Source: Isohypsibius dastychi
Lineage: Eukaryota > Tardigrada > Eutardigrada > Parachela > Isohypsibiidae
Assembly: GCA_034696485.1 (NCBI GenBank)
Contig: JAQIWT010000388.1
Span: 1-21,568 of the forward strand
Direction: 5' to 3'
DNA length: 21,568 bases
The translations under genes and the position numbers were made by a program. Below the pieces are notes generated by a model. It was not told the DNA's origin and ran no database searches. It saw only the letters and a list, made by a program, of their open reading frames with translations. Below, in pieces: positions 5,392 to 11,185 of this stretch (position 1 is its first letter; each line of letters opens with the position of its first letter).

Positions 5392-7406
5392 TTAACCGCG
5401 AAAGGCTGGTGTCCACTTTCCGTATCGAACTACCGACTTGATTTTCTCGGTGTTGTTTGAACATCCACTCGGAGACGTGGGAGGTAGAGTTGTCGAAGTG
5501 GTTAGAATTCGAGTCAAGGAGCACCTCAGTGTCTTCGGGCCTGATTCAGGGCAATCATTCTTGGAGAAAATGCCATTTCCTCCCATAAATGGTACATCTA
5601 GTGATCTCCCTGGAAGAACCACATTTAAAAAAGAATCAATCAAAATTAGTGGATCACTTTGGAAAAACCTCGTTACTGTTACCAGTTTCTGCTTCAACTT
5701 ACCCTCAGACCATCCGTTGTTTTGGCTGTTGCACTTGCGAGCCATCGGGTCAGGACGAATGAACCCCTCTAGTGGACCATCGGATGAATCTACAAAGCGC
5801 AGGAACAAGTCAAAAAATTCACACCGTGCAGGAAACTCGCAGTTTCACACACGCTGTCACCATCCTACGCATCCTTAATTTCTGTGCCAATTTTCAAAAG
5901 ACCAAGCCAGTTTACTTACCTTCTATTCGCAACTTGATGCTCTCTTGTTTGGACACGTCAGCGCCCTCACTTCCTGAATAACGCTGAAAGGCAGTGATGA
6001 CACAAGTGTAAGTTCCATCGGACTGTGAGGTCACATTTCGAATCGTCAACATGCTGAGTCTTTGTGCCGGGTCCATTACGATAATTCCTCTGTCGAGATC
6101 ACTATCGTCGATGTTAAGGATGGGCCTAACAACAGGAGAGCAAAAATGCTGTTGTGTTATAGCGAGTGTAACATTGTTATAACAATGTTAGAACGTGGTT
6201 AACATTCTTAACATTGTTATAACATATTCTTTTGAGGTAGCCCGTTACAGTATGTTATGTTAACGGCTCTAACTGGGCAGATAATATAAATTTGACGCTC
6301 ATTCCAGATATATCTGAGGTTCTCGGAGCTGCAGAAGCAACCAGGTTTAATTTTCGGGCCCTTGAACGGTGGAGCTCGTAGAGTAAGATTAACTTCAAGT
6401 CCCTGACCTACAGTTATGATTTGTTGCGTGCTGCGATCAGGCAGGCAGGCACACATACACCCGAGTTTGGAACTGCCTGATAACTTACCGGAAGGTGACC
6501 GAATTCAAAATAAGAACTGACTTGACGATGTTGTTTACCCATAACATACATAACGTATCATATATAATATATCGTATATCATATATAATATATAATATAT
6601 CATAACATTTTGTCTGACTTTATTTTGGGTTTTCTTCCAAAGAAAAACAAGCCTAACACATTTTCAGATATTACCCGGAACGTTTTGATTTAGTCAGAAT
6701 ATCTGGGATGTTATGATCATTAGTCATTACCCGTTGCGCCGAAAGGTTACTTCGCTGACGAATCCTTGATGTGACAGAGAAGCTCACCATTAATGGTACA
6801 GTAAACTTGAAATTAACATCAGTTTGATAAATGCAGTAGATTGACGAGTCTTGGAGAAACTAAATGGTAAGCTTGCCAAATTTCGATGGATTGATTCAAA
6901 TAAATCCCAAATTCAATATGTCTTATCCAGTTCGATGACGTTTTTGTATCATCACGCTAACATAATTTGCGTGTTAAAACAATTCACAATTCCCGTTATG
7001 TTATAACAATATTTTATAACACGTCATAACAGGCTAACATGTCCAACAGAAGAAGCCGCGCTCGTTATGTTATGTTATAACACTTTACCATAACATTTTG
7101 TTATAACGGTGAAATGTTAGGCCCATCCTCAGTCGAAGTACCTTATCTCAGGCAAATTCCAGAGCTGCAGCGGATCGGTGTCACTGAAAATCGTTCTTCG
7201 ACTCCGATTTTCTTGCTCTTGAAATCCCAAACAACAATGATCTCAGTGTATTCGGGTTCAGTAACTGTCCAAGAACACTGGAACTCAACTGTTGATCCCA
7301 CATTTTCTGTATGTGGTACGGTTAACGACATGTTGAACTCGACAACAGCCATGGAAAATTGCGCAAAGGCAAAAAAGGTTAAAGTTGAAAATAACATTAA
7401 CATCAT
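5392..7406 (-). CDS. Secreted single-Ig-domain protein, four exons, one-base frame gap in exon 1
   Basis: Minus-strand exons are 7406-7142, 6125-5920, 5789-5703 and 5609-5392; introns are 1016, 130 and 93 bp with GT-AG ends. The second and third introns are phase 1 and join in frame. Residues 1-20 form a signal peptide. An Ig V-like domain follows, with Cys44 and Trp60 in exon 1 and the DGTYTC motif in exon 2. After it comes a cysteine-containing tail with no membrane anchor, so the protein should be secreted. Upstream frame ATGs are absent; ATG 7406 is the first. Exon 1 switches frame by one base between Trp60 and the donor, most likely at the T-run 7208-7211. The exons total 776 nt, one short of 259 codons. 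Intron 1 is almost wholly a transposable element. The frame gap could mean a recent pseudogene or an assembly error. The binding partner is unknown. Confidence 0.62.
6169..6190. repeat. 22-bp perfect palindrome in the element's subterminal region
   Basis: TAACATTGTTA is followed immediately by its reverse complement. Partial copies (AACATTGTTATAAC) occur at about 6210 and related GTTATAAC motifs near 7000-7110. The clustering near both ends of the element suggests protein-binding sites of the transposition machinery. Confidence 0.7.
6553..6604. repeat. AT-rich low-complexity tract
   Basis: Alternating ATATAATATATC-type units, partly duplicated around CGTATATC, form a self-complementary AT tract inside the transposable element. 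It has no coding content. Confidence 0.7.
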
Positions 7407-8412: not shown

Positions 8413-9017
8413 TACTGAATTCTTCCCCATTTCTTGTGTAGGAGTTCGTACAGACCAACACGCCATGCAATCCAAGCCGGATTCTAGCTGCACAACTGCC
8501 CATCTGACTGGATAGCTCAATCTTGCAGGGAGCCATCTCTGATTTGCCAGAACATTCGTGCTCTAAACAGTGGTGATTCGATTTGCTCTCTGGGTGGGGA
8601 GGGGGGGGGGTTGCTGGTTACAAACTGCTACATTCAACGCAAATTTCTGACTGGTCGAACGACAGTTGGGCGGAGGTCTGATTATTCCATCCGGGAAAGA
8701 AACAGACCGGAAGCAAGGCACAGAAAAGATATTGACTGCGTAGAAATCTGGTTCCGCTTTCTGCGATCCCAGGACGCAAATTTCGTTTGTTATCAACAAC
8801 CGATGACCAAAAACTGTTGTTTACGATTTGAAATGTCTACTGACTCTATACCGCTGTTCAGAGCAATCGTCTAGTCATTTCTCCACGGACAAATGCGAAA
8901 CAGTTACATGTTTTCATTTAGCCGGGAAAACCTGCGTTCGCCGCAGTTTTTATTTCAGCGCACGAAATAACGAAAACTCATGCCACGAATGATATCTCAC
9001 TTCCAACCTTTCTGATC
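8413..9017. other. Intergenic upstream of the astacin gene
   Basis: There are open frames of about 75-90 codons on both strands around 8560-8870, but none has a recognisable motif and they overlap each other. The stretch contains a G-rich tract at 8592-8610 and presumably the astacin promoter, for which I see no clear TATA box. Confidence 0.4.
8592..8610 (+). repeat. G-run, potential G-quadruplex
   Basis: GGGTGGGGAGGGGGGGGGG gives four G-tracts separated by single bases, a good quadruplex-forming pattern about 400 bases upstream of the astacin start. Confidence 0.6.
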
Positions 9018-11185
9018 ATGGAATACTGTGCCATTCTGCTGGAGTTTTCTTCAGTTCTATCATTGCTGTCAGGCGCACCCACCTCTGACATCCCAGTAAA
9101 CTGGAGGGAGTTCATTTCACCGGAAATGCTTGAGAAGTACGACAATAAGACGACAGTGGGTTATTCTGGGGATTTCTTCCAAGGAGACATTGCTGGAGTT
9201 GACAGAGAAAACACAGCTGGAATGACCTTGAACAATGCCATATCCGACGAGAAAAAAAGATGGCCGGGAGGTGTCGTCCCTTATCAGTTTAGTAACAAGT
9301 ACAACAAGGTCGACCGAGCTGAGAAAATATTGATACAAGCCGCTATGAATCAGATATTAGCTAGCAGTGGAGGCTGTATAAAGTTCGTACCCAGAAAAGC
9401 AGAAGAGAACTACATTTTTATCGCCCGTGGTTTAGGCTGCAGTTCCCAGGTGAGAAAGATAAACAAGATAGAACAGCCAATCTAGGTGACACATTCGAAA
9501 TACCGATATCCCCCCCCCCCCACAGTTATTTTCTGGGTGCTCCCTGAGTGGTAGTTTTCGGCTGGGATTGTATATGCTCTTTGATTTCTGAATTTGGATG
9601 AGATTCTTCGAGTGGCATCCAACCGAAAATTTTCCGAAGTTTTCTGTTTCTGGTGGTTTTGGTTTGTGTGCCTTGGGGCAATCTATTTTCATGAAGACAA
9701 ACGGTTTTTCTCTTTACTGACGGTAAGACGAATCTCAGCATCGAATAACTTTCCGTTTTCATTGCAACCCGCTTGGACACTAAAATCACGTTGGAGTTAT
9801 GTTGGCTCGCATAAATTCCATCAATGTGTTCCAGGTCGGCAGAGTCGGCGGAAAACAGCTCGTCACCCTCACCGTGGGATGTTTGGACGAGATCGGTTTA
9901 ATTCAGCACGAATTCATGCACGCACTGGGCTTTTACCACGAGCACTCAAGAGCTGATCGTGATGATTACATAATCATAAACTCGAAGAATCTTCCCGATC
10001 CCATGTCCCAAGATTTTGAAGTTCCCACAGACTCAACGACCTTTGGTTTGCCATATGATTATGACTCAGTAATGCACTACAGACACAACGCTTTTACGGT
10101 CGATCCGTCATTCCCAACAATAGTCCCAAAGAAAAAAGGTCGCCGTATTGGACAGAGTGCTGGTCTCAGCTTATTGGACATCTACAAGTTGCGAAAAGCC
10201 TATTTCTGTGAAGAACCTGAAATCCCTCCACCAGCCATTCATCGAAAGGTGATTCACCCACCACCTATAAATCTGACATCGACGAAGTCGACAGACATTC
10301 GGGCAGAAGGCGACAACTGGAAAGAAGTGTCTGAGGCATTGGAACGTCTTTCGGGTAAAGCGACTCAGATCTACGCTCGAAATAGCAACCCAGTAACCGG
10401 GATATCGCTTTGGATGGTCAACTCGCAAAATCAACTCTTTCGTTGGCTGTGGCGGACGGAAACCTGGGAAAAAGAACGCAGTGATGTTAAGAATGTCGGA
10501 GCTGGATTTGATGGCTCAGCATGGAGTGTCACTCCATGCGGCTTTATTAGCCGGTACAGGGATGGACACTGGAAGGATGTTCCAGGTCAGGAAGATTACT
10601 AACGTTCATTCTGTATTGGGGGATTTTGATAATTAAGATATTAAACAGAGTTTCAATTGACATGAATCCCCGTTCGAACGAAATTGAAGTAATTTGACGA
10701 ACAAAATCACGGCCACTGGTTTCATTCAGGGCTCCTGGTCCAGGTCTCTGGCCGAAATTACAATGAAGCTCTTGGAGTGAATAGGCAAGAAGATATTTAC
10801 CATTATATTCGTGGTGGATGGTTAAAGCTTCCCGGTGCAGCTCGATGGGCGTCCATTGGGGAAGACGGGGAGATGTGGGTTATCAACAGGCGAGTTACCT
10901 GGTTTTCATTTTGTTGTATTGGATTTACATTATTAACGGAATTTTAGTCAAGATCAAATCTTTCGCTGGAGTGCCACCTCGGATAACTGGGAGAGTGTTG
11001 AAGGAGCAGCCAAGATGGTTGATGTGTATAACGCTGATCGTATAGTCGTGACTAATGCAGCACATGATGTGTTCCGCTGGACCGGCAGCGGATGGAATAA
11101 ACTGGAGGGATCTTGCGAACAGGCTTCGATTACTAAGGAGAGTATCTATTGTGTCAATCAGGCTGGCGAGATTACCACTGTTTAA
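9018..11185 (+). CDS. Secreted astacin metalloprotease fused to a tectonin-type propeller, 526 aa
   Basis: Exons are 9018-9449, 9835-10585, 10730-10889 and 10948-11185. All junctions keep frame. After a signal peptide (about 1-22), the propeptide carries FFQGD (53-57), the aspartate-switch motif that blocks zinc. The astacin catalytic domain follows: HEFMHALGFYHEHSRADRD from His169 gives the zinc ligands His169, His173 and His179 with catalytic Glu170. SVMHY (222-226) is the Met-turn. The four domain cysteines are 120, 141, 160 and 269. From about residue 310, repeated blocks such as WMVNSQNQLFRW and WVINSQDQIFRW, spaced with W...V.G, mark tectonin/tachylectin-like propeller repeats, which usually bind carbohydrate. 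The third intron (10890-10947) begins GCGAGT, a GC-AG intron. It is required to join NSQDQIFRW in frame. Intron 1 has a C-run near its middle. Confidence 0.9.

Follow-up and report, generated by a model that had tools for sequence, protein, structure and literature searches.

A DNA transposon has inserted into a formerly uninterrupted exon for an immunoglobulin (Ig) domain in the tardigrade Isohypsibius dastychi, an event well supported by the terminal inverted repeats (TIRs) of the element, an 8-bp target-site duplication (TSD) and six paralogues that carry the domain in one exon. The original prediction had read the same arrangement as an intron gained from a transposon. The insertion into an uninterrupted exon stands, but splicing is faced with a poor donor, a frame break and a stop codon upstream, and a chance rate of ~20% for junctions of comparable quality. 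A transposon-interrupted, probably broken gene copy is the most likely reading on balance, with a new intron, by whichever of two splice pairs, possible if doubtful. The coordinates of all features within the window, i.e., the whole 21,568-nt contig analysed, are compiled in Table 1.

Table 1. Features of the interrupted Ig gene and of the inserted element (window coordinates).
Feature	Position	Strand	Basis or remark
Second exon of the same gene, open to the stop at 5392, holds ..GFIRPDP	5392..5789	-	Paralogue likeness; putative 3' limit
Ig-domain exon, downstream part (DGTYTC half), open, ends at donor G/GTAAGT	5920..6106	-	Profile match
TSD copy 1, 8 bp, GTCGATGT	6107..6114		7/8 match to TSD copy 2
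Non-autonomous DNA transposon, hAT-type by target duplication	6115..7131	- (strand of host gene)	1,017 bp; TIRs, copy-end comparison, matches on at least 14 contigs
TIR TAAGGATGGGCCTAACA	6115..6131		Minus-strand reading holds the predicted acceptor AG (first exon base 6125)
TIR, opposite end, TGAGGATGGGCCTAACA on the minus strand	7115..7131		Inverted-repeat search and copy-end comparison
TSD copy 2, 8 bp, GTCGAAGT	7132..7139		Comparison of copy ends
Ig-domain exon, upstream part (hydrophobic start, FQC, VVW)	7140..7406	-	ORF reading, profile match
Candidate intron of the original prediction, AAG/GTACTT ... TTGTTAG/G, 1,016 bp	6126..7141	-	Splice scores, chance control
Alternative candidate intron, TCA/GTGACA ... 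ACAACAG/C, 1,036 bp, exon open from start codon via both halves	6149..7184	-	Pair scan

The element is real, and what lies at 6115-7131 is a transposon insertion. Exact 15-bp inverted repeats occur at 6117-6131 and 7115-7129, and both the ends and the TSD length were fixed by the same rule as in eight other copies of the family for which both ends were found. An element with TIRs inside an Ig-domain exon had thus been recognised correctly, but its borders have shifted: instead of 1,020 bp counted from 6112, the other copies put the ends at 6115 and 7131. Similarly, the GTCGA taken to be the target duplication gives way to 8 bp, the length seen in the eight other two-ended copies; the 5-bp version was rejected, being just the longest run common to both 8-bp TSD copies. 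The window element has no genes of its own.

How widespread is the family? A DNA search of the 30.4-Mb assembly (1,648 contigs, the window being C388) returned matches on at least 14 contigs, the window's included, and the family, on this lower bound, does not look large, contrary to what had been supposed. Both ends were found in nine of these 14 places, while one end was not found in the other five. The two TSD copies agree at 8/8 positions in six of the two-ended copies (on C741, C967, C697, C115, C329 and C718) and at 7/8 in three, namely those on C1286 and C458 and the window copy. The top-scoring other copy, on C741, shows 82% identity over two main stretches. As a means of counting family members, we discarded a TIR pattern with two mismatches (23 matches), which is uninformative at such looseness because a reversed control gives more (33). 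A further element, 146 bp in length, is nested in the C697 copy (~G000:C697:10289-10434; also in L071). Its inverted ends are long (TACTCTATCCTCCCGATAAATCGG), its target duplication is apparently TA, and, with 40 of 65 candidates scored, it matches at least 31 other contigs at identities of 80-98%; it makes up a small high-copy family.

To which superfamily does the element belong? An 8-bp TSD is a feature of the hAT superfamily, which includes Ac/Ds of maize, and all nine two-ended copies carry one (7 or 8 of 8 bases agreeing). The tip of the window element, TAAGG, presumably points to the same superfamily. Matches to the hAT dimerisation domain (PF05699) are present at 18 places of the genome. 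Among 12 transposase loci searched, each spanning 1.6-3.2 kb such that long elements would be cut, one (L074, on C1497) has a TIR and TSD pair with a PF05699 match inside. This short element (L074:520-1393) contains a hAT transposase domain and is bounded by inverted tips TAAAGATGGC, with CCGGATAA duplicated perfectly over 8 bp on either side; eight of ten bases agree between its tip and that of the window element (TAAGGATGGG). Because the genome's transposase-bearing hAT element has a similar tip together with an 8-bp duplication, hAT-type appears the likeliest class of the window element. At up to three mismatches, the family TIR was found in none of the 12 transposase loci (1.6-3.2 kb each), and at four mismatches in three single places among them.

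The identity of the target is best appreciated from its relatives. A genome search with the DGTYTC half retrieved five other places, to which a fuller comparison added a sixth; two of these paralogues are on C1107, two on C1232, one on C1638 and one on C494. Each of the six has one open exon that spans the hydrophobic start and the entire Ig domain. A profile of the six paralogues matches the joined window flanks, with scores of 67 and 49 bits for the two sides of the element; the window gene retains the Ig cysteines and tryptophan, and ..GFIRPDP in its second exon resembles the paralogues' second exons. Since all six paralogues have the domain in a single exon, the uninterrupted state is, by parsimony, ancestral and the exonic insertion derived. 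Together with the TIRs and the TSD, this bears out the proposed insertion into the middle of an Ig-domain exon. It also speaks to a further scenario, wherein the element entered a pre-existing intron that was lost in the paralogues: none of the six has an intron at this place, the target duplication is set directly within uninterrupted codons to either side, and nothing was found in favour of this highly improbable reading, which we rejected. No homologue of the Ig gene emerged among 478 candidate public proteins at E <= 10, and none of the window's receptor-like ORF among 1,539 candidates at E <= 0.001.

The Ig gene family (C1107, C1232, C1638, C494 and window 5392-7406) is divergent, with two members falling just under the cut-off of a CD47-like V-set match (20.3 and 20.5 vs 21 bits). 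Between two intact members on C1232 lies a partial Ig relative with an in-frame stop (L061:4614-4793), and the family therefore includes broken members. The neighbourhood of the interrupted gene also includes an astacin-like protease gene (window 8922-10602), in which a tectonin match below threshold follows the protease domain. The top public match of its ORF is an Anopheles stephensi entry, which ranks ahead of tardigrade proteins and may contain contaminant sequence, and five of the ten best public matches are Paramacrobiotus or Ramazzottius proteins.

Is the host gene otherwise intact? The profile matches of the joined flanks do not share a frame: profile positions 2-71 fall in one and 89-149 in another. 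Read from the start codon, the exon yields FQCSW and VVWDFKSKK and then runs into a TAA at 7145-7143, ahead of the predicted donor, with the switch of frame placed between ~7188 and 7143, outside the element. The codons cited for continuity across the insertion site (GAG ATA AGG TAC TTC GAC) are those of the DGTYTC half, not of the start-codon frame. Deleting the element and one target copy does render the codons locally continuous into the DGTYTC half, as had been stated, but the exon upstream is in the other frame and meets the TAA. In an unspliced reading, the frame of the DGTYTC half meets a stop at the very first codon of the element, and that of the start codon ends even before this. Elsewhere the gene stays open, with ~62 codons in the DGTYTC half and ~132 codons in the second exon. 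An end motif, GIG(I/V)GRSL*, is common to the C1107 and C494 paralogues and was not found on the window's gene strand, nor in the C1232 and C1638 stretches examined; because the latter two also go without it, its absence is weak evidence of a broken gene.

An assembly error at the frame break is possible, yet not the likeliest cause, because ~7.7 kb of reference coding stretches from the same assembly contain no such break. This control comprises the six paralogue exons (2,706 nt), the astacin exon sequence (771 nt) and Hsp70-like matches on C294, C234 and C140 (4,263 nt), omitting the Hsp70-like match on C1485; chosen from matched or open stretches, it favours intact sequence and passes over the C1232 fragment with its stop. 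The one TAG inside an Hsp70-like match is at an intron end. A short intron as the cause of the frame change was rejected, the stretch concerned (~46 bases) being shorter than the shortest of 14 measured introns (53).

Could the element nonetheless be removed by splicing? In the original prediction, a host donor (AG/GTACTT) is joined to an acceptor within the TIR (TTGTTAG/G), which would leave the frame break to an assembly error or a later lesion. Both motifs are present at the positions given for them. To score them, matrices were derived from 15 donors and 14 acceptors of this genome, read by eye in Ig (seven), Hsp70-like (two) and astacin (one) genes. Each reference site was left out of its own scoring, and the candidate sites were scored with the full set. 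The donor, AAG/GTACTT, reaches 1.7 bits, a value exceeded by 14 of the 15 reference donors and equalled or exceeded by 20% of the 2,440 GT dinucleotides in the window. The acceptor, TCTCCTGTTGTTAG/G, fares better: at 4.15 bits, it beats five of the 14 reference acceptors and ranks in the top 8.7% of 2,411 window AGs. Moreover, an AG at this place of the TIR or one base on is found in 12 of the family's 13 left ends (1.7 to 6.6 bits), the exception being C967. Given that the 14 introns measured here span 53-148 bp, with one of 385, an intron of 1,016 bp would be unusual. The junction is in frame locally, as claimed, with a net gain of 9 nt, but its product is not open from the start codon because the TAA at 7145-7143 precedes the donor.

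How often would such a junction arise by chance? As a control, the element was placed at every position of the six intact paralogue Ig exons, the outer 60 bases excepted (1,986 sites), and a site qualified when both splice scores were at least those of the candidate, the donor was no more than 30 bases away, and the net change was in frame, at most 30 nt and without a stop. In the present orientation, 402 sites (20%) qualified, as compared to nine (0.5%) in the opposite one; raising the donor limit to 5 bits left 78 vs 3 of 1,986, and without score limits solutions existed at 64% and 59% of sites for the two orientations. In this simulation, the contrast between orientations appears to be a property of the element. 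As about one in five control sites qualifies, the local in-frame junction is weak evidence of splicing; the claim that the element is spliced out as a new intron is itself weak. Despite the acceptor-like AG that recurs across the family, we consider an intron born from this pair unlikely.

A scan of GT/AG pairs points to a second candidate. Fifty of 1,233 pairs examined leave no stop between the start codon and the end of the exon, and the predicted pair is not among them. One that is combines the donor TCA/GTGACA (intron from 7184) with the acceptor ACAACAG/C (exon from 6148) and would give a stop-free Ig exon of 151 residues, from the start codon to ..KLRIEG; paralogue exons measure 148-154 residues, and this is the sole open pair within that range. 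With it, the host stretch 7183-7140 would have turned intronic and thereby been released from coding constraint, which would account for the frame break and make it harmless. However, both sites are weak (donor 1.93, acceptor 0.65 bits), the acceptor differs from the one common to the family, and with 50 of 1,233 pairs open, finding an open pair by chance is unremarkable. An intron formed in this way strikes us as quite improbable.

A broken gene copy, to return to the most likely reading, would have come about as follows. A non-autonomous hAT-type element would have entered by cut-and-paste transposition, creating the 8-bp target duplication within the sole Ig-domain exon of one gene from a divergent tardigrade Ig family. 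This copy would now make no normal protein, and splicing via the weak nearby sites, if any, would be inefficient or incidental. The frame break with its TAA, a donor below nearly all references and the missing end motif argue for this reading somewhat more than the remaining features argue otherwise. Counting against it are the open DGTYTC half and second exon, the retained cysteines and tryptophan, the alternative pair that is open at paralogue length, and a possible assembly error at the frame break. As the two TSD copies differ at one base, some time may have passed since the insertion, with no stops arising there.

Do other copies of the family behave like introners? Across the joined insertion sites of the eight other two-ended copies, 21 ORFs of at least 50 aa were present, in seven of the eight (none in C1286). 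A Pfam scan of all 21 gave no match at the curated cut-off, a test that would miss exons that are short or lack a Pfam domain; the only matches, both sub-threshold, were TMEM144 (15.8 vs 26.2 bits; C329) and GtrA_DPMS_TM (17.7 vs 26.1 bits; C697). The Ig exons themselves have Pfam matches below threshold only. With few copies found and none of the eight others crossing an ORF with a Pfam match over cut-off (exons without domains being missed), the proposal of a large introner family is not supported, and on present evidence we do not file the family as one; a single copy could still act like one. Each introner family described by Gozashti et al. (2022; PMC9860276) is a group of introns resembling one another, numbering from 5 to over 2,000 copies, and median lengths range over 30-654 nt. 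Some families bring a single splice site of their own, and insertions can add codons, which lends the predicted pair a precedent. The window element resembles these introners (PMC9860276) in being DNA-transposon-like, with TIRs and a TSD, in lying in an exon, and in pairing one element-derived with one host splice site at the cost of extra codons, the sites here being predicted. It is unlike the families portrayed there (PMC9860276) in that a single 1,017-bp copy lies in an exon, with none of the eight others over an ORF with a Pfam match (domainless exons missed).

By analogy, the nearest published mechanism would be that of maize Ds1. Ds and Ds1 share with the window element a non-autonomous nature, an 8-bp duplication and residence in a coding exon, and exonic Ds1 furnishes splice sites from its ends (PMC5432752, citing Wessler 1991). 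The differences are that Ds splice sites are reported to have RT-PCR support, whereas those considered here are predicted from DNA sequence, and that Ds1 offers donors and acceptors, while the window element has just an acceptor-like end (PMC5432752). The element is also akin to hAT MITE families, mar of Drosophila among them, which are likewise non-coding, with inverted repeats and in an animal genome (PMC3517528); the host is a different one, and the likeness is one of description.

What would either outcome mean? If spliced, the locus would represent the birth of a single intron by a DNA transposon in a tardigrade, and a literature search found no text pairing 'tardigrade' with 'introner'. 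Tentatively, a hAT-type tardigrade family that bears a ready-made 3' splice site at one of its ends may then have given rise to an intron within an Ig exon, the adjacent host stretch already decaying as intronic sequence, and the two ends of the element would differ sharply in acceptor potential. If unspliced, this would be an ordinary transposon-interrupted gene copy, whose local in-frame junction is easily mistaken for intron gain.
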